Shown here: positions 1,285 through 23,441 of the stretch, piece by piece
Numbering within the stretch: position 1 is the first letter of the stretch
How the letters are laid out: each line of letters begins with the position of its first letter
Source: a virus
IMG/VR virus record: IMGVR_UViG_3300025133_000350
Span: 1 to 35,161 of that record
Direction: 5' to 3' (one strand)
Length of the DNA: 35,161 bases
Translations under genes and position numbers: made by a program
Notes under the pieces: model-generated
The model's database searches: none
The model's input: only the letters and a program-made list of their open reading frames with translations
Told to the model about the DNA's origin: nothing

Positions 1285-1299
1285 CTCGGTTGCGAGGTG

Positions 1300-1323: not shown

Positions 1324-1381
1324 TTCCACACAACTTCGTGTGCATAATGAAACGCTGAGAGGCATAGCAAAGGATAGGAAA

Positions 1382-1873: not shown

Positions 1874-1892
1874 AAAACAAAGGATAGAAAAA

Positions 1893-3078: not shown

Positions 3079-3087
3079 AGGAACACA

Positions 3088-3715: not shown

Positions 3716-3786
3716 GGTATTCGGGCTAGTCAGCCCAAACATGACACCTTACAAACCCACACAGACCCTTATAGGAGGATTGACCA

Positions 3787-3984
3787 ATGACCACAGGCAT
3801 AACTTGCGAACATTGCAACAAGACACAAGAGACAGTCATCAAAGAAGTAGACGGTGTGCAAACAATAGCACACGAGCCTCTAATCACCCTATCAAATGGA
3901 AACAAATACTGTCTCCAACACTACAACGAAGATGGAATATATCTGGCTGTTAAACTGAAACGAGAACAGGAAGGTAACAAATGA
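3787..3984 (+). CDS. small CxxC protein, 65 aa, possible zinc finger half
   Basis: A CEHC motif at residues 7-10 and a third cysteine with a nearby histidine (KYCLQHY, about residues 41-47) suggest a single small zinc-binding site, although the spacing matches no family I can name. Strong AGGAGG (3775-3780) upstream of ATG 3787. The stop overlaps ATG 3981 of the next gene as ATGA. Possibly a small regulator or anti-host factor; unproven. Confidence 0.65.
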   Translation: MTTGITCEHCNKTQETVIKEVDGVQTIAHEPLITLSNGNKYCLQHYNEDGIYLAVKLKREQEGNK

Positions 3985-4127
3985 AAAACCCGCCACGAGC
4001 TGAAGATCGAACATTTCCTTTGCGAACCGCCACGTTGGGGTTCATATCAATGACAACACCCAAGCCTCGGCTTGCATCACGACCGAAAAAAGATTTTACT
4101 AAGTACAAGAAACGGAGAAAAAAATGA
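3981..4127 (+). CDS. very basic 48-aa peptide
   Basis: ATG 3981 overlaps the previous stop (ATGA), is preceded by AGGAAGG (3969-3975), and the frame ends with TGA 4125-4127 overlapping ATG 4124 of the next gene. Overlaps at both ends make this short frame credible. The peptide is strongly basic, especially the last 12 residues, which end KYKKRRKK, as expected for a nucleic-acid-binding tail. No family recognised. Confidence 0.6.
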   Translation: MKNPPRAEDRTFPLRTATLGFISMTTPKPRLASRPKKDFTKYKKRRKK

Positions 4128-4351
4128 ATCCATACACGAAACACATCGCCCTCAGTTTAATTCTGGTACTCATCTTTGTAGCGTTGGGAGAATGGATACC
4201 CGCAGGGATCATGTTCACGCTAGCAGTGTTCATCACATGGAGGGAGCATCGCTACCAAAGAATGTTGTTCAACCATTGGGAAAGAGAGCAGCATCGTCAG
4301 GATGCGATAGATGCCATGTCAGACCCCGACAACAAATTCCCATACAAGTAA
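4124..4351 (+). CDS. small membrane protein with two hydrophobic segments, 75 aa
   Basis: Residues about 7-24 and 27-40 are hydrophobic and separated by a short EWIP turn, followed by a charged C-terminal tail of about 35 residues rich in R, H, E and D. This resembles small phage inner-membrane proteins or holin-like proteins, but the early operon position argues against a simple lysis role. GGAG lies 6 nt before ATG 4124, which overlaps the preceding stop. Last gene before the bidirectional terminator. Confidence 0.65.
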   Translation: MNPYTKHIALSLILVLIFVALGEWIPAGIMFTLAVFITWREHRYQRMLFNHWEREQHRQDAIDAMSDPDNKFPYK

Positions 4352-4354
4352 AAG

Positions 4355-4390
4355 AAAACAACCCGCAAGTAAAACTGCGGGTTGTTTTTT
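4355..4390. terminator. bidirectional intrinsic terminator between converging operons
   Basis: AAAACAACCCGCA (4355-4367) pairs perfectly with TGCGGGTTGTTTT (4376-4388) around an 8-nt loop, and TT follows directly. Read on the minus strand the same 13-bp stem ends in a TTTT-C-TTTT tract. It lies between the last plus-strand gene (ends 4351) and the last minus-strand gene (ends 4409), exactly where the two long operons converge. Confidence 0.92.
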
Positions 4391-4408
4391 ATTTATAGTA
4401 TTTAAGTG

Positions 4409-4615
4409 TCATCCTTCTTTTTCTAGCCCTTCTAGTAAACGACAGACATTCTCTACAAGAACGAGTGAGGCTCTCTGTTGCCTCAAGATTGCCATGACTA
4501 TTTGATAGACTCTTAATGACACATCTTCTTCTGCCAACATACGCTTAACCATTCGCTCCTTGTCCGGGAATTCTTCAACGAGTTTTCTCAAATCTTCTGC
4601 ATTACTGTTCGTCAT
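4409..4615 (-). CDS. hypothetical protein, 68 aa
   Basis: Last gene of the long leftward operon. Helical, charged protein with no recognised domain. The start at 4615 is preferred over 4630 because GGAG lies 5 nt before it; this makes a 14-bp overlap with the upstream gene (ends 4602). Possibly a small accessory protein of the replication module, by position only. Confidence 0.6.
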   Translation of the reverse strand: MTNSNAEDLRKLVEEFPDKERMVKRMLAEEDVSLRVYQIVMAILRQQRASLVLVENVCRLLEGLEKEG

Positions 4616-4811
4616 TGATGCTCCAATCATAATAATTCATAATGATTAACCGATTAAACAAAGGCCAATACCACCAATTACCTTCGTGTTCAACATACTT
4701 TTGTTCTGTATGCACCCCATCCTTGGCGTGAAACAATATCATTTCTGCTTCTGGATAACCATCAAACCGTCTGCCGTCCGCGAAGCCGCCGATACATTCA
4801 ATCATTTCCAT
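4602..4811 (-). CDS. hypothetical protein, 69 aa
   Basis: Unrecognised. The N-terminus has the pattern IGGFADGRRF, and the middle is aromatic (NWWYWPLF). This resembles small phage proteins of unknown function that sit next to replication nucleases, but I cannot name a family. AAGGAG lies 7 nt before ATG 4811, and the gene overlaps its upstream neighbour by 14 bp. Confidence 0.65.
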   Translation of the reverse strand: MEMIECIGGFADGRRFDGYPEAEMILFHAKDGVHTEQKYVEHEGNWWYWPLFNRLIIMNYYDWSINDEQ

Positions 4812-5163
4812 TACTAATCTCCTTAACTTTTTTTGCCAGTTGTATTTTATCCATGAAGAGAATCAAATCTTCAGCTCGAATTGTTATCAGCCAAGGCTTT
4901 CTGTTTCTGCGGTGCGCAACATAGGGAACAGTGTTGTCGGCGCAGTCTCTGACAGCCTGATCGATTGCGTTATGGATGTTGAGGCGTTCGACACGTTTGA
5001 TCTCTGGGTGTGTTCCGGCAATCCCATCCACCACATCTGCGTTTCCAGATAGCCCAGAAAACTGTTGTCCACGCCTAGCGTTCAATCCAAACGTATCATT
5101 CAACCACTTTGCAAACTCGCGTTCGCCAGCCGCGCCCTTTTGTCTCGAATTAATTGCCAACAC
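4798..5163 (-). CDS. PDDEXK-type nuclease, putative Holliday junction resolvase-like
   Basis: The 121-aa protein has the layout of the small phage PDDEXK endonucleases often annotated as Holliday junction resolvase-like: an N-terminal glycine-containing helix with E (KGAAGEREFAKWL, about 9-21), the metal-binding D in GNADVV (about 40-45), and the E-x-K pair in PEIKRVERL (about 53-61). A basic patch HRRNRKPWLI follows. It probably resolves branched replication or recombination intermediates before packaging. It lies at the distal end of the replication operon, overlapping neighbours by 14 bp on both sides. Confidence 0.75.
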   Translation of the reverse strand: MLAINSRQKGAAGEREFAKWLNDTFGLNARRGQQFSGLSGNADVVDGIAGTHPEIKRVERLNIHNAIDQAVRDCADNTVPYVAHRRNRKPWLITIRAEDLILFMDKIQLAKKVKEISNGND

Positions 5164-6930: not shown

Positions 6931-8631
6931 TTAAAACCTCTCTATATTTTGTTTACTATCAACACGCTTCCAACCATTGGCAGCGACAGCATCAATGAGT
7001 TTACTCGCTTCGTCTCTACTTATGTCGGGGGAGTAGCCAAATCTTCGTAACAATTTGGCCTGTTTGTAAGTTGCTTTCCCAGACTTAGCCCTTTCTATTA
7101 ATCTACCTATCAAAGCCGACCCTTCTGAGGATGTCATACTTACAGCATCGGCACTATCGACCCCAAATCTTTTCAATCCGGCGACAAGTCGATCAGAACA
7201 TGGTCTGTTCGATGCCCCAAAACCCTGCCGTTCTACTGGCTTCATTCCGATTGCGCCAAATGGATCGGTGGTTCTTGAACTCCAATCAACCCTTGCCCTT
7301 AATTTCTTCCGCCTAACCTGTTCATCTAACTCACGTTGCTTTGCCGCTTTGATTTTTTCTTCTAATTCTTCACGAGCTTGTTTTAGGGCTTCATCAACAT
7401 CTTTGGGCTGGGTAGTGTCCGACAATATCTCTCTTGCAACAGTTATCTCTTCATCACTATATGTACCGCCCAAAAGGTTTGCAGTGTGCATAAGTTTGTG
7501 CCGTCCAGCGTTGCCAACAAAATCGACAACCTCAAGTGTAGGCTTACCTGAATCCGCTATTGCAGTGCGCCTATCTTCCGACGTTTCTAATCCATCAACC
7601 ACATGGGGCAATGTTCTTGTGCCACGCCCTACCATTTGGGCAAACAAAGCCCTTGACTTGGTTGGTCTTGCTAGCACAATTACTTCGAGAGTAGGCTCGT
7701 CAAAGCCCTCTGTGAAGCAGCCAACATTTACAAGTATCCTAGTTTTACCCTCCGCAAACCTTCGCAAAGTTTCTCTGCGACTATCTTTGGGTGTCTTGCC
7801 ACACACCCACTCAGCAGAACCAAATTTGTGCCGATTGAATATCTCGCACAATCTTTCCGCATGTGCAACACTTGCTGCGAACACCAAGGTCTTGCGATCA
7901 CCAATAATTTCGAGGGTTGGTGTTGCGATGCCGTGCAGATTCTTTTCGTACTCCATCACTGCTGCGAGTTGCTTGCCATTAAGATCCCCGGCTGTTGTTT
8001 TAATGCCAGAATAATCTAGGCTGTTAACTACAACCGACCTCTGCACTATTGGGACAAGCCAGCCGTCAGCGATAGCATCATGAATCTTATATTCGTAGGC
8101 TACCGAATCGAATATCATGCCCAACGCCTTCTCGTCTGCACGATCAGGCGTTGCTGTCACGCCTAATATCTTTACGTTTGGGTTATTCTGTTTGTAGTAG
8201 TCTATGATTCGTCTATAACTCTTGGCAGGAGCGTGATGAGCCTCATCTATTATTACTAATGAGAATTGCTTAGGGTCAAATTTCAAAAGCCTGTTACTAG
8301 CATTCTGTGTCTGCACACTTGATACAACCACCTTTGATCTATTAAAAAACCCCTCGTCTGCACGATAGTCAGCCATCTCGATTGATGGTTTTGTTCCTGT
8401 AATTACCTCTACCTTTGCAGCAGCTTGCCAGATCAATTCTTCTCGATGTGCAAGGATCAGTATCCGACCAGATATTTCTCTATCAACCAAGTGAACAAAC
8501 ACAACAGTCTTGCCTGTACCTGTTGGGAGAACAAGTAGTTGCGCGTCATTATCATTCCATCCATCATTGATGTGGGTAATCGCCTTTTCTTGATACGGTC
8601 TAAGGTTCAACGTAATTCTTCCATCAAGCAT
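6931..8631 (-). CDS. superfamily 2 DNA/RNA helicase (type III restriction ResIII/UvsW-like)
   Basis: The 566-aa protein has the SF2 motifs in order: Q-like RPYQEKAI (11-18), Walker A PTGTGKT (36-42), DEAH (129-132), TATP (159-162), a motif V region VGCFTEGFDEP (303-313) and motif VI QMVGRGTR (332-339). Residues about 415-450 form a charged coiled coil, and a C-terminal module with KATYKQAKLLRRFGYSPDIS resembles the small domain seen at the ends of other phage and bacterial DNA-processing proteins. It probably unwinds or remodels replication and recombination intermediates. The start overlaps the methyltransferase 3' end by 25 bp. Confidence 0.9.
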   Translation of the reverse strand: MLDGRITLNLRPYQEKAITHINDGWNDNDAQLLVLPTGTGKTVVFVHLVDREISGRILILAHREELIWQAAAKVEVITGTKPSIEMADYRADEGFFNRSKVVVSSVQTQNASNRLLKFDPKQFSLVIIDEAHHAPAKSYRRIIDYYKQNNPNVKILGVTATPDRADEKALGMIFDSVAYEYKIHDAIADGWLVPIVQRSVVVNSLDYSGIKTTAGDLNGKQLAAVMEYEKNLHGIATPTLEIIGDRKTLVFAASVAHAERLCEIFNRHKFGSAEWVCGKTPKDSRRETLRRFAEGKTRILVNVGCFTEGFDEPTLEVIVLARPTKSRALFAQMVGRGTRTLPHVVDGLETSEDRRTAIADSGKPTLEVVDFVGNAGRHKLMHTANLLGGTYSDEEITVAREILSDTTQPKDVDEALKQAREELEEKIKAAKQRELDEQVRRKKLRARVDWSSRTTDPFGAIGMKPVERQGFGASNRPCSDRLVAGLKRFGVDSADAVSMTSSEGSALIGRLIERAKSGKATYKQAKLLRRFGYSPDISRDEASKLIDAVAANGWKRVDSKQNIERF

Positions 8632-10067
8632 ACGAATGCTTTCGCCGCAACAATAGGTACTACTCCGTTTCCGAGTAGTCGCAGAGAATCCAATCGACAG
8701 GAACGCACCACGTTGCCGTCGGCAGTGCCATGAGTTGCGCCACCCAAAGCGGTGATAATCTCTTCACTTCCAATTGTTCTTGGGGCTTCCCAGATGTGTT
8801 GGGATTGTTCGGGGTGTGCTGGGAAGCCGCCACTGAACACGCTAATCGCTTCTTGTGTGCAAAGCGAATCAAATCCTCTGGGTTCTTCGCTGTGTCCTTG
8901 TGATCTCTCGTGGTAGGAGTCGGCCAGTTCTCTACCGCAGTCTTTAGTGGGTTGCCCGAGTTCTTCCCCCTTGGGTTTCCCTTGTCCGTGCTGCCTCCCC
9001 CCGTACTCGCTGTCGGAGTCGGCCAGTTTACAACATCCTCCTGAAGATTCCTGCAACCGCCCCCCTTTGCAGCATCCGTCAACTCGTTTGGCTTTCTTAT
9101 CTGATCTCCCCTTGTCGAATCCGTCACTTGTGGTGTTGCCCAAGTCTTTGTTTGTCGAACAGCGACACCCAGACTCTTTCCCGGTTTTCCCTTCGCTCTC
9201 CCATCTTCGTAATCCTTCACCCTCTTGTTGTAATTCTCTAGTGGTTCGTCGTGATTCCCGCGATCCGCATGAATCCCCGTTGGGGTTGGCCAGTTCACCG
9301 CCACATTTATGTGAAACTGTTTGTTGATTCCCTGCTTCGCCTTCTCCGCCTGTTGGCGTTTCCAATTCTCTGGATCGATTTCCACTCCTGCTCGGTGTGC
9401 TTGCATCACATCTGGCGTTGGCCAATTCGTCTGAACAACATCTGTCAACGTGTCCCCCACAACACTCTTCCAATGTGGCTTGGCTGCTGTCGATCTTCGA
9501 CTGCCCTTCGCATCGCTTGCTGTCGGTGTCGGACACCGCGAGGATGAACACTCGCTTCCTTTGATGAGGCGCGCCGCATTCCTCCGCACTGAATATGCTT
9601 GCCGTTGCTCTGTAACCCAACGCCTCCAATCTTCCCAAGACATACTTGAGAACACTTGTACCTTCTTCTCCTCCATACTTAGAGGAAATAATCCCTTCGA
9701 CATTTTCGAGGAAGATGATTCTTGGTTTACACTCCATGATAATTCGTTCGATGTCTGGGAACAAATGTCTTGGATCATCTGTACTTTTTTGCTGCCCTGC
9801 ATGGCTGAATGGTTGACATGGGAATCCGCCAGTGAGGATGTCCACGAGTCCACAAAATGGTCGTGCATCGAAGGTTTTAAGGTTCGTCCACAAAGGTGCT
9901 TCATCCAGTTGTTTGCTTTCCATCTTCTCAACCAAGTTCCCCGCAGCGAAGGCTTCGATCTCCACATAAGCGATTGTTCGCACTGTTGGGAGAACGCTTC
10001 TGAGTCCAAGGTCGATGCCTCCGTAGCCGGAACATAAACTGAGGTGATTGATTTTGGTAGTATCCAC
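8607..10067 (-). CDS. DNA (cytosine-5) methyltransferase, GTG start
   Basis: C5-methyltransferase motifs are in order: motif I LCSGYGGIDLGL (11-22), motif IV GGFPCQPFSHAG with catalytic C84, motif VI FLENVEG (119-125), motif VIII GAPHQRKRVFIL (165-176), and C-terminal RLDSLRLLGNGVVP (458-471). It should methylate cytosine in phage DNA, protecting against host restriction. Residues about 180-430, where the target recognition domain belongs, are low-complexity (G, S, C, R and E) with repeated LAN/LAD units. That same DNA is open in a second frame. The start is GTG 10067, with AAAGGATAG ending 4 nt before it. The segment looks richer in GC than its neighbours by eye, suggesting separate acquisition. 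Confidence 0.9.
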   Translation of the reverse strand: MDTTKINHLSLCSGYGGIDLGLRSVLPTVRTIAYVEIEAFAAGNLVEKMESKQLDEAPLWTNLKTFDARPFCGLVDILTGGFPCQPFSHAGQQKSTDDPRHLFPDIERIIMECKPRIIFLENVEGIISSKYGGEEGTSVLKYVLGRLEALGYRATASIFSAEECGAPHQRKRVFILAVSDTDSKRCEGQSKIDSSQATLEECCGGHVDRCCSDELANARCDASTPSRSGNRSRELETPTGGEGEAGNQQTVSHKCGGELANPNGDSCGSRESRRTTRELQQEGEGLRRWESEGKTGKESGCRCSTNKDLGNTTSDGFDKGRSDKKAKRVDGCCKGGRLQESSGGCCKLADSDSEYGGRQHGQGKPKGEELGQPTKDCGRELADSYHERSQGHSEEPRGFDSLCTQEAISVFSGGFPAHPEQSQHIWEAPRTIGSEEIITALGGATHGTADGNVVRSCRLDSLRLLGNGVVPIVAAKAFVCLMEELR

Positions 10068-10069
10068 AT
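8660..10069 (-). CDS. overlapping +1-frame ORF with six WPTP-like repeats
   Basis: An uninterrupted frame, +1 relative to the methyltransferase, spans nearly the whole gene (469 codons from ATG 10069; open further upstream to 10171). It carries six units: CPTPTASD, WPTPDVMQ, WPTPTGIH, WATPQVTD, WPTPTAST and WPTPTTRD, then RLSPLWVAQLMALP. From memory, many phage proteins annotated near cytosine methyltransferases have WPTPTxxD repeats followed by an NPxWVExLMGxP-like segment, so this frame resembles a known family and is not random. ATG 10069 and the methyltransferase GTG 10067 share two bases (ATGTG) behind one AAAGGATAG. Whether it is translated, or the resemblance reflects a common overprinted module, cannot be decided here. 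Confidence 0.45.
   Translation of the reverse strand: MWILPKSITSVYVPATEASTLDSEAFSQQCEQSLMWRSKPSLRGTWLRRWKANNWMKHLCGRTLKPSMHDHFVDSWTSSLADSHVNHSAMQGSKKVQMIQDICSQTSNELSWSVNQESSSSKMSKGLFPLSMEEKKVQVFSSMSWEDWRRWVTEQRQAYSVRRNAARLIKGSECSSSRCPTPTASDAKGSRRSTAAKPHWKSVVGDTLTDVVQTNWPTPDVMQAHRAGVEIDPENWKRQQAEKAKQGINKQFHINVAVNWPTPTGIHADRGNHDEPLENYNKRVKDYEDGRAKGKPGKSLGVAVRQTKTWATPQVTDSTRGDQIRKPNELTDAAKGGGCRNLQEDVVNWPTPTASTGGGSTDKGNPRGKNSGNPLKTAVENWPTPTTRDHKDTAKNPEDLIRFAHKKRLACSVAASQHTPNNPNTSGKPQEQLEVKRLSPLWVAQLMALPTATWCVPVDWILCDYSETE
8914..9535. repeat. six dispersed degenerate repeats inside the methyltransferase gene
   Basis: On the plus strand short variants of GTTGGCGTTGGCCA recur at about 8914-8926, 9013-9025, 9131-9142, 9280-9292, 9412-9424 and, more diverged, 9523-9535, spaced 99-149 bp apart. 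Read on the minus strand they encode LAN/LAD-type units in the methyltransferase frame and WPTP-type units in the +1 frame. The repeat may have spread by internal duplication and may help exchange of target-recognition segments. Confidence 0.7.
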
Positions 10070-10071
10070 TT

Positions 10072-10080
10072 CTATCCTTT
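10072..10080 (-). promoter_or_regulatory. ribosome binding site shared by two nested start codons
   Basis: AAAGGATAG on the minus strand contains the stop codon of the ParB-like gene (TAG) and an AAGGA Shine-Dalgarno core. It is followed by AA and then ATGTG, in which ATG 10069 opens the +1-frame ORF and GTG 10067 opens the methyltransferase. Core-to-start spacing is 5 nt for ATG and 7 nt for GTG. At the other three AAAGGATAG leaders it is 7-8 nt, so GTG has the more typical spacing. Confidence 0.75.
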
Positions 10081-10944
10081 CATTTCTTCTGGCAAGCACT
10101 TCCATAGTTGTTGGGAGAGCCACCCACGATGAGAACATTCTGAACAACCATCGCCGTCGCAGTAGACACACACCGCGTAAGGCATAGCCGTTTTCTTTAA
10201 CGCATTAATAATGTTTAAGCAGTCGGCAACAAAAGCACCAGTGGCTACATCGGCAGCAACGGCATCCATTCTTGATTCTGATTTTTCGCCCCAGCTTTTC
10301 AGAGCATGGGCATGGGTCATAAGATCTGTAATCTCATCTGTAATGCTTTCCCATTTTCTACAAAGGTGTTCAGGGATTACATTTCCAACCGCATCCTTCT
10401 GAACAGGAGGCATCGGAGGATTCTTAATAAGTACCTCCTTGGGGCTTCCTATGTTACTTGTTTCTACTTCTCGACCACTCTTGGTCACTCTTAATGTAGG
10501 TTGACTTGCAGACTCTGCAAGTGAGTTTCTATTTGTTCGTACTAATTCGTGAGATACGCCAACGTGACTTGCGATCATGGAGTCGCTCCACTCTGGGTGA
10601 ATTTTTAATCCCATCACAACAGCCCTACGTTTGTCTGCATTTGTCCTTCTAATGCCATGTGTTTGGTTCGCTGCAATAGCATGCCACTGAGCGTCCTCAC
10701 GAGTCCCCTCACGGACATCTGCGTTGATCTTGGACATCAACGCCTTGCGACTAGCATGCCATCTGTGGAAGCCGTCAGCAAGCCACATGTCAACGCCATC
10801 ATTGAACACAACAATAGGCGGCAACTCTTTTGCCGACTCGTATGCAGCAGCATAATCTGATACTGCGGTGACATCTATTGACACTCTTGACTGAGTGTCA
10901 CCATTAATTTTAATATCTTCTATAAATATATCTTTAATAGTCAT
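10072..10944 (-). CDS. ParB/Spo0J-like domain protein with C-terminal cysteine cluster
   Basis: Residues about 10-70 form a ParB/sulfiredoxin-type domain: LPPIVVFNDGVDMWLADGFH, with R61 completing the DGFHR motif (57-61). An HTH-like segment follows (WSDSMIASHVGVSHELVRTN, about 125-145), and the C-terminus carries a CVYCDGDGCSEC cluster typical of a DnaJ-type or zinc-ribbon site. Phage homologues of this layout act as DNA-binding or nuclease-like regulators rather than plasmid partition proteins. ATG 10944 is chosen (GGAG 7 nt upstream). Its stop codon lies inside the ribosome binding site of the methyltransferase, implying coupled translation. Confidence 0.75.
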   Translation of the reverse strand: MTIKDIFIEDIKINGDTQSRVSIDVTAVSDYAAAYESAKELPPIVVFNDGVDMWLADGFHRWHASRKALMSKINADVREGTREDAQWHAIAANQTHGIRRTNADKRRAVVMGLKIHPEWSDSMIASHVGVSHELVRTNRNSLAESASQPTLRVTKSGREVETSNIGSPKEVLIKNPPMPPVQKDAVGNVIPEHLCRKWESITDEITDLMTHAHALKSWGEKSESRMDAVAADVATGAFVADCLNIINALKKTAMPYAVCVYCDGDGCSECSHRGWLSQQLWKCLPEEMKG

Positions 10945-13047: not shown

Positions 13048-13914
13048 CTATTTTGCCGGAATTACTTCGAGATGAATATCTTTATTCTCTGCATAGAACC
13101 TTAACCACATGGCTCCAATGGGTTTAGGTGGTCCACCACGCTCGATGTGCCAGCCACCAAAACCGTCCATATATTCATCTTTATATGTACCTATCCGTAT
13201 ATGTACTTGCTCGTCTATCGCTATCGCGTTGTTCTGAAGTATTCTTTCCCTTGCGATTGGGACAACCCACTGATCGTGAGTATGCCCACTGCAAACTATA
13301 TCAGCGTCTGGTAGATATACCGCCAAACGATTTGTCTGAATCACGCCGCGAGTTACAGGTCCACCACCACCAGACCCATGATAATACTTCATATTAAACT
13401 GCTTGCCTGTCTTACCCTTTGTAAATTTGAATCTCACCCAGCCGCCATATCCGCCAGCTTGTACATGATGTCCAGACATAGCAGACATTCTCTCGCACGT
13501 TCGTTCGGTCAAATCTGTTTCATGGCACTTTAATATAGATGTCTCATGGTTGCCACGACCAATAACCACGAAGTTCTTAGCGTAGGGTGCATAAAATTCT
13601 GCTGCACACTTTACCAGAGAGTCGAGGTATTGTCCCTCCTGCTGCTCAGGTCTGCAAGCCGATAGGTCTGATCTACGATCCCATTTGCCCTGCATAGCAC
13701 AGTGCATGTCGCCAACATCTATTATGCCAGCGTTGCGTTTCACCGCTTGTTTCAAATGTTTAATTTCTAACGCTTGGTCAGTGTGTCCATTATCGTGGTG
13801 ACGATCTGATGACAACAAGAACCATTGTTCCCACCCACCATAACGCTTAATCTGAGTCCTTACAACATGGACATTTCGAGATGGATGCGATACAGTAAAT
13901 GGAAGTTTTGTCAT
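13048..13914 (-). CDS. calcineurin-like metallophosphoesterase
   Basis: The 288-aa protein has the metallophosphoesterase signature set: SDRHHD (36-41), DVGDMH (66-71), RGNHE (120-124), a histidine in YYHG (H179) and SGHTH (209-213). The fold cleaves phosphoesters of nucleotides, DNA ends or proteins. The first motif deviates from the canonical DxH in spacing (DRHHD). It lies between the tail genes and the replication leader and overlaps the upstream adhesin gene by ATGA, so it is co-transcribed with late genes. Substrate unknown; Mre11/SbcD-like DNA processing is one possibility. Confidence 0.85.
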   Translation of the reverse strand: MTKLPFTVSHPSRNVHVVRTQIKRYGGWEQWFLLSSDRHHDNGHTDQALEIKHLKQAVKRNAGIIDVGDMHCAMQGKWDRRSDLSACRPEQQEGQYLDSLVKCAAEFYAPYAKNFVVIGRGNHETSILKCHETDLTERTCERMSAMSGHHVQAGGYGGWVRFKFTKGKTGKQFNMKYYHGSGGGGPVTRGVIQTNRLAVYLPDADIVCSGHTHDQWVVPIARERILQNNAIAIDEQVHIRIGTYKDEYMDGFGGWHIERGGPPKPIGAMWLRFYAENKDIHLEVIPAK

Positions 13915-15308
13915 GCAATAGATACCTTTGTTGAAGCATCAAACAGTACAGCCCCGCCATAAACAGTTATGTCGTCGCCCGAATCATTGGTAAATGTTGA
14001 TGCGCCAGTTCTTGCGTCGAGTACACCGTTGGGATACACAAGGGTGTCACCAACCTCTATCGGTGAACCAGTGTTGCCACGGAATGATGCTCTTCCAGAA
14101 TAAATAGTTAATTCATCAATCTCGTCGGTATAAATTGTAGCGGAAGTGCCACCAGCAATTACCAAATCGCCTACCGTCGCAGAAGATTGATTAAAATATA
14201 ATGAAGAACGGTCGGCAAACGTCCCAGCCGCAACGCCACCATCCAAGGTTATATATGATCTAGTTGAACGAACTGTATACCTATCAGACAGTTTGACTCT
14301 TGCTCCGCTATGAACATCTACTGTGTTCGTATTGGCTCCGTCAATCTCCACTGTCGTTCTTGCTTTTTGCACAATAACTAAAGCACTATTGCCAGTGATG
14401 TAGAAGGATTGAGATTCGCTAGAGGTGTTGCCCACCCTAACAACATTTCCAACCGCGCCTGTTTGAATATACATTTTAGAATATCTACTGCTGCAAGCAA
14501 GTTTGTTGGTCATCACCAGTATTGTTGATGCCGATGTACCAATATCTCCTTTATAGTTTCTGCCGACAAAAACTTTATCACCTAGTATATACCCACTTGT
14601 AACGCTAACATTCCCAGTATTAAAAATCGCAATATCGAGGACTGTGGGTGCTGTATCACCAACCCAATTACTATCGGTGTTAGCGTTACCGTCACCCGCG
14701 CTGCCGTCCCAAACAATTCTATCTGCCGTTATACATTCTAATCTTGGACGGTCACCCGCACTGGTCGCTTCCAGTGAGTGATATTGACCGCTTGCTCTTG
14801 ACGTTGCTGTGTCGCTTAATGGAATACCTACCCATAAATAAAGTGTTCCGCTCCTGCGGTTGATAGCATCAACAACCAATTCTGTTATATCAACTGAAAC
14901 ATCATCGTCTGTTCTAAAACCAACATCAAAAGTCGCATAAGGTTCGGTTGTTGCACTGTCACTTGCACCACCATCGGCTGCCGTCCAATCTGTTCCAGTT
15001 GCAGAAACAAGCCAAGTTGCTTGATTTTCAACAAAATCCCGTGCTAAACGGTATACATAACACTGCCTTGCACCCGCACCCTTCCCCGCGCCTTTGTAAT
15101 TAAGTTTGAAGTTCACCTGTGTCAATAAACTTGGTGTTAAAGCGGAAACGTCAAAAGCAAAGATGCCATTAGCCCTTTCGCCTTCTGTGCTAAAACCAAT
15201 TGTTTGCTGTCCTAATGTAATAAAGGCATCACCTGAATTATTTGCGCCTGTATTATCGCCATCAAGCCAAGTGTCTTTTGAAGCATAAATTGTTGAAGTT
15301 GTAGACAT
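13911..15308 (-). CDS. DNRLRE-domain beta-solenoid tail/adhesin protein
   Basis: Residues about 1-192 look like a DNRLRE domain: ASKDTWLDGDNTGANNSGDA near the start, ANGIFAFDVSAL, and DFVENQATWLVSATGTDW. From W200 on the sequence is a repetitive beta-rich array that resembles the whole of the neighbouring 287-aa protein (shared VGxxYxGxIG, LTxYSG and final V-x-GG units). Such proteins are usually cell-surface or virion-exposed and bind glycans or other host surface structures. No signal peptide. It overlaps the upstream gene by one base (TAATG), and the next gene by ATGA. Likely a receptor-binding or tail-fibre protein. Confidence 0.7.
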   Translation of the reverse strand: MSTTSTIYASKDTWLDGDNTGANNSGDAFITLGQQTIGFSTEGERANGIFAFDVSALTPSLLTQVNFKLNYKGAGKGAGARQCYVYRLARDFVENQATWLVSATGTDWTAADGGASDSATTEPYATFDVGFRTDDDVSVDITELVVDAINRRSGTLYLWVGIPLSDTATSRASGQYHSLEATSAGDRPRLECITADRIVWDGSAGDGNANTDSNWVGDTAPTVLDIAIFNTGNVSVTSGYILGDKVFVGRNYKGDIGTSASTILVMTNKLACSSRYSKMYIQTGAVGNVVRVGNTSSESQSFYITGNSALVIVQKARTTVEIDGANTNTVDVHSGARVKLSDRYTVRSTRSYITLDGGVAAGTFADRSSLYFNQSSATVGDLVIAGGTSATIYTDEIDELTIYSGRASFRGNTGSPIEVGDTLVYPNGVLDARTGASTFTNDSGDDITVYGGAVLFDASTKVSIA

Positions 15309-16171
15309 TATGTGATTGTCACCACTCTGCCTATGTCATATTCGATTTTACCACCCTCTACTTGGATTGCGTTGGTAAAGACAGCGTTTTGTAAACCACT
15401 TCTTTCGTTCAATTTTGCCCCCTCATGCAAAATACAATCCGTGATAGTAAAAGTAGGTGCTAACGAATCTGAAGTGCTAAAATCCCCACTATACAATGTG
15501 AGCTGGTCAATGGTACAAGCACCTGTTGGATTAAATCTGACGCGACCCCCATAAGTTTCTAGTAGGTCAATTGTGTCGGTAGATGAAATCGCGGATTCTA
15601 ATTCTCCGCCAAATACTGTTACTGTTGGGATAGCCTCATTCATATTAAAGGTTCCACTGTCCATAGTTAATGCACAAGATGCGTTAACAGTAGTACCATC
15701 TGCCAATGTCGTAGTTACTCCGTCCGCCCCTATCTGCTCTATAGTTGTAAGCATATTACAACTAGCGTCTATATTAATTGAGCCGCGGCCACCAACAATT
15801 CGCAAAGTTGTGATCGTGTCGGCACTTCCATAGAAATTAAGGGCTGTTGTACCTGTCCCTGTATCCTGCACCGTCACTGTTGTATATGTTCCTAAAAAAT
15901 ATGCCCCTGCGCCTCGTCCTCCATAATCCAAATCTGTTGCATCTATTGTCAACTTTGTATCAGAAGATCCTATTGAGCCAGTGTATTTTGGTCCAACTAC
16001 TATTCTGGTAACAGTCGTCTCTGTACCCCCCGCTATATCTACACTACCACTTACTACGAACGCTGTGTCATCCGCATCTGGAACACCACTAGGTGACCAA
16101 TTTGCAGCAGTACCCCAATCATTCTCAAAGTCAGTAGTTCCACCTACCCAAGTTCTATCAACTGCTGTCAT
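15308..16171 (-). CDS. beta-solenoid tail-associated protein, paralogue of its neighbour
   Basis: The 287-aa protein is almost entirely short beta repeats (T, V, I, G, D) with an N-terminal module TWVGGTTDFENDWGTAANWS, the W-x-GG...NWS pattern seen at the start of many bacterial beta-helix adhesins. Its C-terminal third aligns with that of the 465-aa neighbour (LTLYSG, LxxRSG, V-x-GG, VVTIT), showing duplication. No signal peptide or membrane segment. It is placed after the tail-tip genes, so a tail-fibre or decoration role is likely. The ribosome binding site is weak (GGTGA), six bases before ATG 16171. Confidence 0.65.
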   Translation of the reverse strand: MTAVDRTWVGGTTDFENDWGTAANWSPSGVPDADDTAFVVSGSVDIAGGTETTVTRIVVGPKYTGSIGSSDTKLTIDATDLDYGGRGAGAYFLGTYTTVTVQDTGTGTTALNFYGSADTITTLRIVGGRGSINIDASCNMLTTIEQIGADGVTTTLADGTTVNASCALTMDSGTFNMNEAIPTVTVFGGELESAISSTDTIDLLETYGGRVRFNPTGACTIDQLTLYSGDFSTSDSLAPTFTITDCILHEGAKLNERSGLQNAVFTNAIQVEGGKIEYDIGRVVTIT

Positions 16172-16176
16172 TTAAT

Positions 16177-16749
16177 TCACCATTTCCCTTTTGGGCATTC
16201 TTCATGCTTCAATTTAACTTTGGCTGCGCAAAAACATCCGCAGCCACCCAGTTCTTTACCCTCCGCGTCGATCTCTCTACACACTCCAAAATCGTAGATG
16301 GGACACTTAACACAAATCTCTTTTCTCTTTTGTATCATCTCTTTATCAGCAGCGTCAATACCTAACTCAGATTTAAGAAGTTTTGCACCACCCTGTATTA
16401 ATCTTTTAAGTCCTTTTGCGGCACAAGTTTTACAGCCCTTTTTATCTGTTGGAGCGGGCTTGCCCTTTCTTGCCCCTCTGTCCTTGGGCTTGTCTTTATT
16501 GTATTTGTCGCGTTGCCTTTTCCACGGAGGATCGGCTTGTTCTAACAATTCATTAAGGCGAGCCTTTTCTTCATTGTGTTTGTGAAGAATCTGGTCTGCT
16601 CGTATCTTTCTTTTTTTATCTGCCTCTTTCACTGTTTGCTCCATTGCCTCGAGTTCTTGTTGAGTAAATCCTGCATAGCCCTCTGGAACCATTATATGGA
16701 CATGATCCTCAATTTCATTCGCAATTTCATATAATTTCGTTGGTTTCAT
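16177..16749 (-). CDS. small cysteine-motif phage protein with CP.GKW-type C-terminus, 190 aa
   Basis: The N-terminal 100 residues are charged coiled coil, followed by a basic linker rich in K, G and P (about 100-115). CKTC (about 116-119) starts a C-terminal half ending in a cluster ICVKCP, GVC, GGCGCFCAAKVKL and EECPKGKW. I recall short phage proteins with the GCGCxxxAKxxxxxxxCPxGKW ending, usually of unknown function and probably zinc-binding. ATG 16749 overlaps the stop of the cysteine-rich gene as ATGA; longer frames extend into that gene. A structural or assembly role is possible. Confidence 0.7.
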   Translation of the reverse strand: MKPTKLYEIANEIEDHVHIMVPEGYAGFTQQELEAMEQTVKEADKKRKIRADQILHKHNEEKARLNELLEQADPPWKRQRDKYNKDKPKDRGARKGKPAPTDKKGCKTCAAKGLKRLIQGGAKLLKSELGIDAADKEMIQKRKEICVKCPIYDFGVCREIDAEGKELGGCGCFCAAKVKLKHEECPKGKW

Positions 16750-18422
16750 GCTAAAGCCCATGTAGGTAAAGGGTTGTTGTTTGGGATCATAGATATGGAT
16801 ACATCTGCACACATGTGCGCTTGCAACCCACCTCCCGGACAGGGCTGACAATCCGCATGGTTCAAATCTGGCTCACTTAAACAATGTTGACACGGATACA
16901 AGGGATTGGGTATACCGTTTGTATCCAAATGCTCATTTGGTCCACAACAATTGCAAGGATCGCAATCATCGCAATCAACGCATCCTGTATCCCAATCCGT
17001 ATTACAACAATCGTCGCAGTAATTGCATCTACACCACCAAATCGCCGGAGGGCCATAATACTCGCCGTCAACCTCTGGCGTGTTTGGGTGTTCAAAAAGC
17101 CACTCTGTACTTCCGCAATATGAACTTGGAACCATACAAGTATGCACTGTCCCCTCGCCGGGAGTGTGTCCCGGAAGTGTTGGTCCACCAAATATGGCTG
17201 TCGGGTGCAACGATACCAACGCCCCATCAGTTCTAACCGTCGAATCAAATGATGTAAGTGGGGGACAAGAACATCCATGAGCCGAAAGTTCAGGCTGACC
17301 GTCTTGAGTATCATTATCGCAATTCGAGTTACAAATACTTGTAGCACCCCACCACACGCCGCGATATGCTAGTGCCGCCGCAGAGCCGCCACCAGCAGCC
17401 AGATAACAATCATCGTCGTCAAATGGCTGAATACAGTCAAAACCGTCACCTTGATGCCCCATCACAGACCTTGCTTGTTCTGTAAGACCGCGTATCTCTA
17501 ATTGCCACGCACTATCACAACTTCCGGGATCTGTCTTAATTGTCATATATGCTTCAATATGATGAGGCTTAAAACTGCCACATGACCAACATGCGTAAGA
17601 AACATCATCAAACGAATCACAAGCACTACTGACCATGCCGGGGCAGGGTGGGGATGCTGGCACTTGATCTACACAAAAAGCTTGTCCGTCACTACCGCCA
17701 TGTTCCATCGGAGAATGAAGTCCCCAAACATCTAGCGATGATGCAAATCCATCATTCATCGGAACGCACGGATTTTCAGGATCACAGGCTGCGGTCGGCC
17801 CGCCGCAAACAACCGCCTCTGTTGGGTCGCCCACATGCTCACAATCGCAATCTGGATATGTATCACTTTCCTCATGGCAGCAACAGTTGGAACAGTCGCA
17901 AGAACTTGTCCAATACCCACCCCAAAAACAACGACAAATTGTTTTTGATGTCCCTTCTCCAGAATCCCCCCCACCACTGCAATAGGGTTTATCTGATCCC
18001 GCCCTCGTAAGCCTTACATGGTGTGTAGTTTCTGCATAAGAAACTGGATCTTGAACACCGCCAGTGATGTTTGTCCATCCAGATGGAGCGCCAATTACTG
18101 GTGTCTCATTATTTTGCATCGCTCCGTCGCACGGCTGTGTTAATGGTGGGTCGCCACTACAACAGGTTTGTCCCTGTATTACGAATTCTTTTAGTGTGAA
18201 TGTTATATCAATATATTTCTTACAATTGTGTCCATCCCCACACGCTGGTGCGCCCTGACAGTCACAATCCTGCCATTCTCCACAGTTGTCCCCATCCCCA
18301 TCGCAGGGCTGGCATTCTCCGCGACATCCACCACACTTCCCGCGATAAGCGTTTTCGGCTAAATCGCCGGGGAAACAGTTTTCTTTGTGCTTACAATATC
18401 TATCGTGTGTAAAACCGGGCAT
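16746..18422 (-). CDS. extremely cysteine-rich tail-region protein, 558 aa
   Basis: About 57 of 558 residues are cysteine (roughly 10 percent), in dense groups such as KCGGCRGECQPCDGDGDNC, SSCDCSNCCCH, CRCNYCDDCC and CVDCDDCDPCNCCG. The protein is also rich in G, D and P and contains a less cysteine-dense central part (about 230-420). No signal peptide, membrane segment or known family. Gene order (after the tape measure and two tail proteins, before fibres) suggests an external virion component, perhaps disulfide-bonded after release or metal-binding. ATG 18422 follows the upstream stop by two bases without a clear Shine-Dalgarno, so coupled translation is likely. Confidence 0.7.
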   Translation of the reverse strand: MPGFTHDRYCKHKENCFPGDLAENAYRGKCGGCRGECQPCDGDGDNCGEWQDCDCQGAPACGDGHNCKKYIDITFTLKEFVIQGQTCCSGDPPLTQPCDGAMQNNETPVIGAPSGWTNITGGVQDPVSYAETTHHVRLTRAGSDKPYCSGGGDSGEGTSKTICRCFWGGYWTSSCDCSNCCCHEESDTYPDCDCEHVGDPTEAVVCGGPTAACDPENPCVPMNDGFASSLDVWGLHSPMEHGGSDGQAFCVDQVPASPPCPGMVSSACDSFDDVSYACWSCGSFKPHHIEAYMTIKTDPGSCDSAWQLEIRGLTEQARSVMGHQGDGFDCIQPFDDDDCYLAAGGGSAAALAYRGVWWGATSICNSNCDNDTQDGQPELSAHGCSCPPLTSFDSTVRTDGALVSLHPTAIFGGPTLPGHTPGEGTVHTCMVPSSYCGSTEWLFEHPNTPEVDGEYYGPPAIWWCRCNYCDDCCNTDWDTGCVDCDDCDPCNCCGPNEHLDTNGIPNPLYPCQHCLSEPDLNHADCQPCPGGGLQAHMCADVSISMIPNNNPLPTWALA

Positions 18423-18424
18423 AA

Positions 18425-19252
18425 TTAAGGTGTACAATCCGCACAAGTGCCATCATAGGCATTTTCTGCTTGAAACAAATATCTTTCAGTTCCGTCCGAC
18501 TCTCTTGCAGCCCACATAATCACGATTGGAGTTGTCCATAAAGGAAACTCGTATTGCGTACACGGCTCAAAAGGTTCACCCTCTTCTCCACAAACACCGT
18601 CAATAAGATACTCTAAAACAGTGTCGCCACCCCCAACTGCTTGCATCATAAAATCTCCTATACCCTTGGTTTCGTCTGTTCCGGGAGCAGCATTATGACT
18701 TGTGTTAAACGCTTCCATAATGTTGAGTGCGGGGGCGGTATAAGGTTCGGTGTGACATATTGCATTGCCACAGCCACATTCAGGTACACATGGCTGACTT
18801 AATGGGTTGTCTGAATCATAGTCATCAGTAGTCCACGCTTCGGGAACATTTGTACCCCATGAAGTTTTTGTTAAATCTTCTTCCCATTGAAAGAAGCCTT
18901 GCAGAGCAACCGTTTCATCCCACGCGTTGCAACAGACGACAGGTCCATATCCTCTAGTGGCAAGGCACTCGGCAGAACACTCTGGCTCACCTGTGCTAGG
19001 AAAGACCCTAACCCAAGCATATTCATAAACATTGGGATTCTGAAGATCCTCATCTAATACATGTGCGCGAAGCAGTTTTGCAAAAAACCACTCACGGCGG
19101 TTCTCAAGAAAAAGTAATCGTTTGTGTAGTGATTGAAGATCGTGTCCATCAACATTGTTGTCCTCAAACCACTGAAGCATTTTCATTTGCCTCGCCCAAA
19201 TGTCGGGAGTGTATACACCTAGCCCTGTAGTTATATTTGGGTATTTACTCAT
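18425..19252 (-). CDS. tail-associated protein with cysteine-rich centre, 275 aa
   Basis: No family recognised. Twelve cysteines cluster in residues about 90-165 (ECSAEC, VVCCNAW, CVPECGCGNAIC) and near the C-terminus (GTCADC). The N-terminal 80 residues are helical and free of cysteine. ATG 19252 overlaps the preceding stop as ATGA; a longer frame to 19303 lies within that gene. Its place between the 271-aa tail protein and the very cysteine-rich gene suggests a tail-tip assembly made of cysteine-containing partners. Confidence 0.65.
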   Translation of the reverse strand: MSKYPNITTGLGVYTPDIWARQMKMLQWFEDNNVDGHDLQSLHKRLLFLENRREWFFAKLLRAHVLDEDLQNPNVYEYAWVRVFPSTGEPECSAECLATRGYGPVVCCNAWDETVALQGFFQWEEDLTKTSWGTNVPEAWTTDDYDSDNPLSQPCVPECGCGNAICHTEPYTAPALNIMEAFNTSHNAAPGTDETKGIGDFMMQAVGGGDTVLEYLIDGVCGEEGEPFEPCTQYEFPLWTTPIVIMWAARESDGTERYLFQAENAYDGTCADCTP

Positions 19253-20064
19253 ACGCTTGGTTGGAATCCAAACTCTATCGTTTCTTTGAACGGTTGCCGC
19301 CATGATACAGGCTGGGTGGGAGGGCTAACAGAATTGTCGTAATCAACTTTCCCATTTGCGTCATAGCGGGGAATTTGACGAAGATGATACCAAGCATCGT
19401 ACACAAATTTATAGGACACTTTATATTTATTTACGCCAGACCTTGACACTGAAATACCAGCAAACACGACCGAGCCAGCAGGAAGCCCAAGCCACGAGTT
19501 AAGATTCCTTTTACCAGCGTTCTGGTGATGTACCATCTGGAAACTATTTGTTTCTATTTCTTCGGTAATGTTAATTGTGGTTTGTGGCACAGCTTTTGAA
19601 ATCGGATTGCCCATAAGGGCCTCTAGCGTCCCTGTTATATATAAGGGATTCTCAGGGTCCGGGTCTGGGTCGTCTATGTTAATTGCGCTCAATGAGAAGC
19701 CACTCTTATATAGATCGACAATTGCAAAGGCTGAATCAATACTTAGTCCCACGCTGGCAACCTCGTCTGGCTGCAATGGATTGTCGCCGCCTGACCCTGT
19801 GCTATATGGATTATATTCCCACGTTACTTCCCACACACCTATTCCTTCGTCGGAAGGAGTCATGGTATAAGTATCCGCCAACAGGTTCTCAGCGTCTGGG
19901 TGCGACTGTCCTTTTGTCGGCATTTGTGGATCAAGAAGTATGTCTACTGCTTCTGCAACCATATCAACCTCATCGTCATAACAAACAAAAATTCTTGAAG
20001 CGGTGTGACCGCCGGATGATGAGAATGTTCTACTGCCAAGTTTTTCAATAATCTGGATGGTCAT
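19249..20064 (-). CDS. tail-tip/distal tail-region protein, 271 aa
   Basis: Unrecognised, mostly beta protein without membrane segment. It follows the tape measure gene directly with an ATGA overlap (20061-20064), the usual location of a distal tail or tail-tip component that closes the tube. A C-terminal stretch (KYKVSYKFVYDAWYHLRQIP) resembles segments in baseplate-hub-like proteins in general character only. Function assigned by position. Confidence 0.55.
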   Translation of the reverse strand: MTIQIIEKLGSRTFSSSGGHTASRIFVCYDDEVDMVAEAVDILLDPQMPTKGQSHPDAENLLADTYTMTPSDEGIGVWEVTWEYNPYSTGSGGDNPLQPDEVASVGLSIDSAFAIVDLYKSGFSLSAINIDDPDPDPENPLYITGTLEALMGNPISKAVPQTTINITEEIETNSFQMVHHQNAGKRNLNSWLGLPAGSVVFAGISVSRSGVNKYKVSYKFVYDAWYHLRQIPRYDANGKVDYDNSVSPPTQPVSWRQPFKETIEFGFQPSV

Positions 20065-23000
20065 TGTGTGAACGCTCCCCTTTTGCCCGCAAGCGACTGA
20101 GCTATACTATGTAGATGATTTTTAGATTGCTTTTGGATTTGCAATGACTGTTGTGCGGTTTTTAGTTGTTGATCTTGTGAGCCTCGCACCTTAAAAGTAC
20201 CCAATGCTGTCTGAATACCAGTAACGGCGTGGCTTGTGTCCACCTGCAACTTCTCCCCCAATATTTCTTTGGCCCTTTCTGCGCCTAGTGCAAACTCAGT
20301 TCCATCAAGCATCCCTCGGTCGCGCATATTTTTAAGGTCTGCCATCCGTTTATCAAATTCACCACGAGGCCCCCAACCCCATTTCAAATTCTCTTTGAGT
20401 TTATCTGATTCGTCTTTTAACCTTTTTGTTGTTGCTACATCTTTTTCTTTCTGTGTCAACAACTTATCTAACGCTTTCGCTTCATCTAAGATCGCTTGTG
20501 AGACACCCTGAGTCTTTGCAATAAAAATCTCTTGCTCTCGACTCGTCATGCCAATTGTTTGTGCAAGTAATTCGTTATCTGCAATTATCTCTTCTAAGTC
20601 TCCAGTTGCTGTGGCGATTTTTTCCGTATCAAACCACTCTCCACGAACCTTGACCAACCGTTGATGTTGCATCTCCGCGCCCACAAGAACAGCAAAATAC
20701 TGATCCATTTCCTGATTTAGCGAAGCAACTTCTGCTTCCATATCGCCCATAAGATTTCCCTTACTCATAAGTGAATCAAAGAAAGATAATTGGGGCTGCA
20801 CCCCACCTAAATCTAATTGTGGTGCAAGAGGGGTCTGCGACATTGTCTGGAGTGAATCGGTCAATTCTTTTGATCTCTGTTCCATTTTTTCAAAAGGATT
20901 CAACTCGGCCATTTCTTTAATTGTATTATTAAGATCCTTTTGCTTCTGCTCTAAATTCTCCTGTTCCGCAAGCAATTCACCCATTTGATGTGTAATCTCT
21001 TGAAAATTTGCGTTTGGGAACGCGGCTTTTTTATCTAGTTTTTCCAGACTTTGTTCCACCCTCAACAACTCTTGTTCTACATCGTATAGTTCCGATACTG
21101 CTTCATCTTGTGGACCAATCACTTTTGTGTTTTTTATATTCTCTAACTGACCCATCCCGTCAAGGTAAACTTGTAATTCTTTAGCCTCGTACAATTTTTG
21201 TTCCATGCCACCCTCGTCATATTTCGAGAAATCTTCGGCTGCTTTTTCTAGTTGCCATTTTGCATTTTGAACCTCTACTGCCGAGTTCATCAACTTAGAT
21301 GTAATCGAGTCTTTGAATTTGTCTATGTTTTCTTCAATAGGTTGTGCCACCGCTTCCCCTGTGGACATAGCTCCCACTATTCTTTTTGAGCCAACCTTTG
21401 CCATATTGAGAATTGCTGGCTCAAGATTTTTAGCCATATCTTTAATAATACTATCCCCACCCTTATTTAACGCTTGGTTTACGACCCGCTTTCTACCCAT
21501 AAGCTGTTTTGCTGCACTTGTCAATAGTGGCGTACCCTTAGCGACAGCACCAGCACCACCGGGGCCTACCATTGGGGTACCGTATATAAGTTTTTTCTTT
21601 CTCGGTTTCTTGCCAGCGTCAAACCCCGCCATATAGTCTTGCGAACCACCAATGTTTATGAGAGGAGTCGATTCTTCTAATTTGTTGTGTTTCTTGAGCG
21701 TGTTTTCATACCGCACCCTCATTTCAACTTTTTCTTTCGCCGCTTTCTCATAAGCGCGGGTTTCTTGATTGAGACTCGCCAATCTTGCTTCCGCTTGTTT
21801 GCGCGCCTCTCCTTTGTCTGTTCCAGAAAATAGATTACTCTCTATTCTCTCAGCCGCCTTTATTTGATTTTCAACCTGTTTTTCTACTTTTGCCAAATCT
21901 TCTTGTATGGGGACGGTTTTAACCCTTGGGTCAATCGTTATGAAAATTGGGGTGCTACCCACCTTTTTAATATCTCTTATTAGATCATCTATAAAATCAG
22001 TGGCTTTTTCAGAAGTCTCTTTAAACACTGAAGCTATATTATCTTTTGCAGCAATCGCCGCCGCTTTCATTGTCCTCGCCGCTCCGACCACCGCGTTAGT
22101 CATTGACCGAGAAAGCAGTATGTATGTTTCTTCTGAAATCGTCCCAAGGGCTTTTAATATCAGCAGGGCGGGCTGCCACACGAGATTCATGAGGCCTAGA
22201 ATATGCATTATTGCGAGGGACAAAACACCTTTTATGGTATTTATTACAGCCATGATCGCAGAGCCAAATCTTTTCAAGTAATCCCACGCTTCTTCGCCCC
22301 ACTTCAATATTTTATAGAGCCACTCTAAAAGGCTTTTAACTGAAAACTTTGACAAATCAATTCTATCTATAACCACTTTGAACGCCGAGGTGAAACCAAC
22401 AACAAACCTTCTTAACACTTCTTGTATATTGCGAATAGAACCCCTCAACCTCTCACCGATCATGATGTTCAGTTCTTGGACAACTGATGCTAACAATTTG
22501 AATGCACCATGAACACTATCCATACGGATGTCTGCCATCTTCCTAGCGACACCCTCAACATCTTGTAACTCGTCTACAAGTTTATCAGTAATGTCGCTCA
22601 TCTTCGCTAACGCAAGAATTGCTGGTCCGCCACGCTTTTGGAATATATCAAAAGCTTTCTCTACGCCGATGCCACCCTCTGTGAATTTCTTTAATGCTGC
22701 AATGCCGTTTCTATCTATCTCGCCCGCAATTTCAGCGAATATGTTTTTCAAGCCTGTACCAGCACGGTCTGCTTGCATACCCGCGTTAGATAGTACACCT
22801 AACATCGCGGCTGTTTCTTCCAGAGTAATGCCCAGAGCAGAAGCAACTGGCGCGACATACCCAAACGCATGACCAAGTTGTTGCACTGTTGTGTTTGTCC
22901 TTGCTGATGCAAATGCAAGAACGTCAACAACACGACCCGCTTCTTGAGCCTCTAGTCCCATGCCACGAACCACCTGTGATGTGATGTCTGCGGCTTCTGC

Positions 23001-23441
23001 AAGATTCATGTTTGCTGCGGCTGCCAAATCTAGGAGCGCGGGTGTCGCAGCCATTACTTCATTGACATTAAAGCCAGCGCGCGCAAGGAATGACATTGCT
23101 TCAGCCGCTTCTGACGCGGTAAACACTGTCGTAGACCCCAACTGTCTCGCTTGCGCCTCTAATCGGGCAAACGTATTATCCCCAATATCAAGAAGAATAG
23201 ACCTAACTTCCTGCATTTTGAATTCAAAATCAGAAAACACAGCGATCATCTTTTTAACTGCAAGGGTTAGTGTTGCAGCCCCGGCAGCAGCCGCCACAAA
23301 GCCAATTTTTGCTAGGCCCCCGAATGTTTTATTTAGAGATTTGCGAAATTTCTTTACAGCCGTCCGTGCTTTACGCAAACCTGTCATCATACCCGTGGTA
23401 TTTGTGTGAATGTTAATTTTAAGGTTGGCTATTGTTGACAT
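20061..23441 (-). CDS. tail tape measure protein (TP901 family), 1126 aa
   Basis: The N-terminal region contains the TP901 core: DIGDNTFARLEAQARQLGST, then ASEAAEAMSFLARAGF, AADITSQVVRGMGLEAQEAG and AMLGVLSNAGMQADRAGTG. Hydrophobic segments near residues 40-65 and 395-440 could insert in the membrane during DNA injection. The rest is long charged coiled coil, as expected for a ruler that sets tail length; 1126 residues would specify a tail of roughly 170 nm at 0.15 nm per residue, using a rule of thumb for siphoviruses. It starts by one-base overlap (TAATG) with the T-frame chaperone, as usual. Confidence 0.92.
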   Translation of the reverse strand: MSTIANLKINIHTNTTGMMTGLRKARTAVKKFRKSLNKTFGGLAKIGFVAAAAGAATLTLAVKKMIAVFSDFEFKMQEVRSILLDIGDNTFARLEAQARQLGSTTVFTASEAAEAMSFLARAGFNVNEVMAATPALLDLAAAANMNLAEAADITSQVVRGMGLEAQEAGRVVDVLAFASARTNTTVQQLGHAFGYVAPVASALGITLEETAAMLGVLSNAGMQADRAGTGLKNIFAEIAGEIDRNGIAALKKFTEGGIGVEKAFDIFQKRGGPAILALAKMSDITDKLVDELQDVEGVARKMADIRMDSVHGAFKLLASVVQELNIMIGERLRGSIRNIQEVLRRFVVGFTSAFKVVIDRIDLSKFSVKSLLEWLYKILKWGEEAWDYLKRFGSAIMAVINTIKGVLSLAIMHILGLMNLVWQPALLILKALGTISEETYILLSRSMTNAVVGAARTMKAAAIAAKDNIASVFKETSEKATDFIDDLIRDIKKVGSTPIFITIDPRVKTVPIQEDLAKVEKQVENQIKAAERIESNLFSGTDKGEARKQAEARLASLNQETRAYEKAAKEKVEMRVRYENTLKKHNKLEESTPLINIGGSQDYMAGFDAGKKPRKKKLIYGTPMVGPGGAGAVAKGTPLLTSAAKQLMGRKRVVNQALNKGGDSIIKDMAKNLEPAILNMAKVGSKRIVGAMSTGEAVAQPIEENIDKFKDSITSKLMNSAVEVQNAKWQLEKAAEDFSKYDEGGMEQKLYEAKELQVYLDGMGQLENIKNTKVIGPQDEAVSELYDVEQELLRVEQSLEKLDKKAAFPNANFQEITHQMGELLAEQENLEQKQKDLNNTIKEMAELNPFEKMEQRSKELTDSLQTMSQTPLAPQLDLGGVQPQLSFFDSLMSKGNLMGDMEAEVASLNQEMDQYFAVLVGAEMQHQRLVKVRGEWFDTEKIATATGDLEEIIADNELLAQTIGMTSREQEIFIAKTQGVSQAILDEAKALDKLLTQKEKDVATTKRLKDESDKLKENLKWGWGPRGEFDKRMADLKNMRDRGMLDGTEFALGAERAKEILGEKLQVDTSHAVTGIQTALGTFKVRGSQDQQLKTAQQSLQIQKQSKNHLHSIAQSLAGKRGAFTQ

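Follow-up and report, generated by a model that had tools for sequence, protein, structure and literature searches.

Fe-S clusters are carried by the tail-tip protein gpL of phage lambda (PMC10721106) and by the tail-tip hub (gp13) of RcGTA (PMC7296036), and disulfides crosslink the contractile tail of Agrobacterium phage Milano, the structural proteins of which contain 2.1% cysteine (PMC10811340). Here we analysed an IMG/VR record of 35,161 bases (henceforth referred to as the window) that displays siphophage gene order on the minus strand and contains a gene (henceforth the Cys-rich gene) for a protein of 558 residues in the tail region. So many cysteines are rare in virion proteins. As with lambda gpL and the RcGTA hub, the genes for the set of proteins to which it belongs follow the tape measure gene, where tail-tip proteins are encoded, and specify cysteine-bearing products made in the cytoplasm; however, gpL and the hub have four cysteines holding one cluster in a conserved hub, whereas members of the Cys-rich set have 11–57 cysteines, are the least conserved proteins of their neighbourhood and have no sequence match. 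With Milano the set shares an abundance of cysteines in tail proteins made inside the bacterium, the disulfides in the particle being Milano's; the cysteines of Milano are spread over its structural proteins, whereas those of the window phage are concentrated in one or two.

The Cys-rich gene and its place in the tail operon

The window contains, in order, genes for HNH/terminase functions, portal, protease, major head protein, connectors, tail terminator, major tail protein (tail tube) and tape measure protein, followed 3' of the latter by a 271-aa gene, the N12 gene, the Cys-rich gene, a small gene with a cysteine motif, and genes of 287 and 465 aa, after which DNA-metabolism genes begin (Table 1). 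The tail genes overlap or are tightly spaced and would therefore form a single operon. In the morphogenesis operon of siphophages the tail-tip genes come after the one for the tape measure protein, and this is where the Cys-rich gene is found in the window and in those relatives whose contigs reach far enough. Genes similar to the 287-aa repetitive gene are also present in loci L035 and L063. Elsewhere in the window, two long frames (486 and 503 aa) overlap on the minus strand at 8607–10171; the 486-aa frame matches DNA methyltransferase families and the 503-aa frame is probably spurious.

Table 1. Positions of tail-cluster genes and cysteine-bearing segments in the window.
Feature	Position	Strand	Details
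Tape measure protein	20061..23441	(-)	1126 aa, 0 Cys; PhageMin_Tail 2e-41, PHROG tape measure 9e-61
271-aa tail gene	19249..20064	(-)	1 Cys; conserved in relatives
N12 gene	18425..19252	(-)	275 aa, 12 Cys; conserved tail-cluster family
Cys-bearing insertion of N12 (approximate)	18737..18985	(-)	common only to window, L003 and L052
Cys-rich gene	16746..18422	(-)	558 aa, 57 Cys; ATG at 18422
N-terminal Cys cluster, residues 10-67	18222..18395	(-)	11 Cys, 9 retained in L052
Densest Cys stretch, residues 464-493, CRCNYCDDCCNTDWDTGCVDCDDCDPCNCC	16944..17033	(-)	outside L052 fragment
Small gene after Cys-rich gene	16177..16749	(-)	190 aa, 9 Cys; CPxGKW-type C-terminal domain
287-aa repetitive gene, probably beta-helical	15308..16171	(-)	conserved after small gene in relatives
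465-aa gene, last of putative tail cluster	13911..15308	(-)	synteny in L034, L032 and L039

The first-pass annotation, made from the sequence alone, described a 558-aa protein with about 57 cysteines, which is exact: the open frame spans 16746–18446 (minus strand) and its internal ATG at 18422 yields 558 residues, of which 10.2% are cysteine. That this frame is a real coding sequence is indicated by a partial orthologue in L052, reached through N12, in which 140 aligned residues show 48% identity and 12 of 15 cysteines are retained (P 0.008). The cysteines are not a general property of the phage, since the tape measure and major tail proteins have none and the major head protein and portal have one each. 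Across 14 related loci, the 178 non-overlapping tail-strand ORFs of at least 100 aa had a median cysteine content of 0.9%; 23 ORFs contained at least 4.8% cysteine, 21 of them being the Cys-rich gene or the small gene after it and the other two both coming from the G+C-rich locus L047. No signal peptide was evident at the N-termini of the Cys-rich proteins, which points to synthesis in the cytoplasm, so that the cysteines would be reduced, or hold metal, when the protein is assembled, and oxidation may follow lysis.

The same annotation took the protein for a tail-tip virion component. Its place in the tail operon behind the tape measure, 271-aa and N12 genes agrees with this, but its membership of the virion is read from gene order. 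The statement that no family could be recognised held up in searches of Pfam, NCBIfam, PHROG and PDB sequences, none of which gave a credible match for the window protein. More widely, Pfam gave no match for the members from the window, L004, L034, L039, L047, L057 and L061, nor NCBIfam for those from the window, L039, L057 and L061, and these profile searches included the curated zinc-finger, metallothionein, Fe-S and other cysteine-rich families. Neither the Cys-rich protein nor N12 matched the lambda gpL-type Fe-S tail-tip family in sequence. An AlphaFold model of the Cys-rich protein of a relative, L004 (alignment of nine rows), had a mean pLDDT of 68 and a pTM of 0.71 and consisted almost entirely of strands, with the N-terminal cysteine cluster below pLDDT 50. 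Foldseek searches of PDB and BFVD with this model found no match at E 0.001 or better, and its best VIA Z of 4.7, for a model of mean pLDDT 68, indicates no more than a common beta arrangement. We found no description of Cys-rich tail proteins of Planctomycetes phages in the open-access literature. Judged by sequence, the set appears to belong to no curated family, and its role would resemble that of a tail-tip or receptor-binding protein.

Relatives and variation of the Cys-rich gene

Used directly as a query, the 558-aa protein found no match in IMG/VR, cultured phages or PDB. Since the Cys-rich protein retrieves almost nothing, relatives were collected with N12 and other neighbours as bait. 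Neighbours led to loci L002, L003, L004, L005, L012 and L032–L034, and a profile of N12 matched 22 IMG/VR loci, one contig of a Phycisphaerales MAG (L035) and further genomes of the class of that MAG (G113, G220, G109 and G120); a phylum-wide sample of Planctomycetota gave three matches, all in genomes of this class. Queries with N12, the 271-aa protein and the L004/L039-type proteins had no match in cultured phages.

Counting the window, the Cys-rich gene is present in 21 loci (20 further ones), which are IMG/VR phage contigs and Planctomycetota genomes, and its products contain 4.8–10.8% cysteine. Complete members range from 133 to 558 aa and from 11 to 57 cysteines; the genes of L049 and L052 are partial, cut by the contig end, and the contigs of L045, L048 and L050, which end before the relevant position, are outside the 21. 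The gene directly follows N12 in 18 of the 21 loci, with intervening ORFs in L035, L049 and L060. The order tape measure, 270-aa gene, N12, Cys-rich gene, small Cys gene, beta-helix gene and 460-aa gene is common to the window and its relatives (L004, L012, L032, L034, L037, L039, L040, L041 and L044, as far as the contigs reach), and genomes from the class of the Phycisphaerales MAG contain part of it. Rather than being an isolated oddity, the Cys-rich gene is one of a hypervariable set that is widespread and keeps a fixed place.

One copy of the module in G120 lies within a 126-kb contig. In G220 a lone close copy of the L057/L058 Cys-rich gene (L075, 10230–10646, minus strand; ~134 aa, 11 cysteines) occurs on a 95-kb contig with cellular genes, including an adenylosuccinate-synthetase-like one, and with no adjoining N12; it is perhaps a prophage remnant. 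These placements support Planctomycetota as hosts of the set, and we infer a host in this phylum for the window phage. In two genomes from the class of the Phycisphaerales MAG, the ORF at the expected place of the tape measure gene has only ~350–380 aa (L063, 319–1380; L064, 9800–10945) and N12 forms the C-terminal part of a ~780-aa protein; these are possibly short-tailed or degenerate elements.

In 45 of 45 phage pairs, the Cys-rich protein was the least conserved of the four genes compared. In one close pair, L043 and L044, to which the dN/dS estimates are confined, the value for the Cys-rich gene was 0.84, which does not exceed 1, against 0.12 for N12, 0.23 for the 270-aa gene and 0.36 for the small gene. 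The cysteines behaved differently from the remainder of the protein: 21 of 21 were kept at 79% identity between L043 and L044, 17 of 18 at 45% identity between L004 and L037 (P 6e-6) and 18 of 19 at 42% identity between L004 and L039 (P 9e-7). That the least conserved gene should yet keep its cysteines argues for a scaffold, covalent or metal-based, beneath a surface that diversifies. All 21 members have 4–7 cysteines within the first 35 residues, and the nine L004-type proteins share seven invariant cysteines, four of them within the first 30 residues. Variable cysteine columns tended to be gained or lost two at a time, as with 37/195, 152/193 (L004 numbering) and two other pairs (P 0.015 in a test on few sequences that ignores their relatedness). 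Profile comparison gave no significant alignment of the window and L052 proteins with the L004-type and L057-type proteins, and the subtypes are treated as one family because of shared position, composition and termini; a short VSIS-like strand closes many of the phage members, and ADVSIS stands near the end of the window protein. In the L043/L044 pair the tape measure proteins (1078–3474 and 2655–5048, respectively) are 59% identical and the products of the next two genes 94–97%, which suggests recombination inside the tail cluster.

N12 and the small downstream gene

The frame of N12 extends from 18425 to 19303 (minus strand), and alignment with the start of its relatives places the true start at the ATG at 19252, which overlaps the stop of the 271-aa gene. 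All 12 cysteines ascribed to this upstream neighbour in the first-pass annotation fall within the resulting 275-aa form. The description of the two proteins as a cysteine-dense pair applies to the Cys-rich gene but not to N12, which is Cys-poor in most relatives, so that the pair is unmatched: a high count is limited to the window, L003 and L052, whose additional cysteines lie mostly in insertions, and the other homologues have 1–3, in most cases 2–3. A core A-x-N-x2-E-x2-N is kept, and DGxC stands at the C-terminus in every complete alignment row. The N12 sequence had no match in Pfam or NCBIfam, no credible match in PHROG and none to PDB sequences. A model of the window N12 (19 rows; pLDDT 63) has helices at its N-terminus as well as beta strands, and a fold search with it gave no match at E 0.001 or better.

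The small gene, whose ATG at 16749 overlaps the stop of the Cys-rich gene, matches phrog_13558 (E 1e-8). Two types of small gene occupy this position, a CPxGKW type in the window and L034 and a type with the motif CxHWxDCG..CGGCKKRxxxLNK in most other relatives. The latter motif is also found in cultured phages: in P12024L it lies immediately upstream of terminase, with a sigma-70-like gene next to it, and in Mel-JY01 it adjoins glycosyltransferases. The idea that the small gene is a tail-specific part is weakened by these occurrences away from tail genes.

Proposed role and alternative explanations

The fixed place in the tail-tip part of the operon, the fixed cysteines and the fast-changing remainder together point to a host-facing tip with a cysteine scaffold. 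We consider it very probable that the 558-aa protein is a siphophage tail-tip component and lean slightly towards its facing the host; a scaffold made of both disulfides and metal is an evenly balanced proposition. The N-terminal cysteine cluster fits metal binding, and the pairwise changes among body cysteines would suit disulfides. The protein would be made in the reducing cytoplasm, together with its neighbours, from a tight operon. Its N-terminal cluster may bind metal (Zn or Fe-S), a site that we conjecture in a region below pLDDT 50 in the L004 model, and may dock on N12, the C-terminal end of which always has a cysteine. The remaining cysteines would lie in the all-beta body as staples, mostly disulfides closing after lysis, and a body stapled in this way could let the loops between cysteines change quickly with the fold retained. 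The small Cys-motif protein may assist assembly or metal loading. Taken as a whole, this reading of a host-facing tail-tip protein with a metal-binding N-terminal cluster and a body stapled by disulfides after lysis has, in our estimate, an even chance of being correct.

It is also conceivable, if unlikely, that most cysteines hold several Zn or Fe-S centres rather than disulfides, in which case the protein would resemble, on a larger scale, the Fe-S tip of lambda (gpL) or RcGTA. The precedent of Fe-S clusters in phage tail tips, the cytoplasmic synthesis and the N-terminal cysteine clusters of all members are in keeping with this, as are the Asp/Cys-rich stretch at residues 464–493 of the window protein and its excess of CxxC motifs (12 seen against 5.7 expected for 57 cysteines, p=0.004). 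However, the CxxC excess was significant in none of the other members, body cysteines vary in pairs and the zinc and Fe-S families gave no match. The Cys-rich and small Cys proteins could also be cytoplasmic metal-binding helpers, or chaperones, of tail-tip assembly that stay outside the particle; the motif of the small gene, at least, is not tail-specific, as P12024L and Mel-JY01 illustrate. We think this rather improbable, because a chaperone that serves the conserved N12 and 270-aa proteins would not be expected to change rapidly around fixed cysteines and because members range so widely in length, from 133 to 558 aa.

Fast evolution, and the lone copy beside cellular genes in L075, would also suit a factor encoded in the tail operon and directed at the host, for instance one acting against host defence or competing phages and diversifying under conflict. 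Accessory factors are typically gained and lost, whereas the Cys-rich gene keeps a constant place beside N12 across very divergent phages, and we regard such a factor as very improbable. The preferred reading remains that of a host-facing tail tip with a metal-binding N-terminal cluster and a disulfide-stapled body.

A further idea was an exchange of thiols with the Cys-rich wall of a planctomycetal host. The YTV wall proteins are Cys-rich and come from the same phylum as the likely hosts, but reports of these bacterial wall proteins are confined to Planctomycetales (PMC8567305), whereas the genomes carrying the module belong to the class of the Phycisphaerales MAG, which weakens this idea.

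A more far-reaching interpretation, which we hold to be doubtful, is that the set represents a hypervariable receptor-binding class in which the fold is held by a fixed cysteine framework and not by a conserved core, with oxidation or metal exchange following exit from the cytoplasm; the fixed cysteine frameworks of knottins and conotoxins serve as a model for it. If the protein does form a receptor-binding tip, it would represent a different route by which a recognition protein can diversify and yet stay folded, infectivity would be tied to extracellular redox conditions or metal state, and N12 together with the Cys-rich gene would provide a sequence handle for phages of Planctomycetota.
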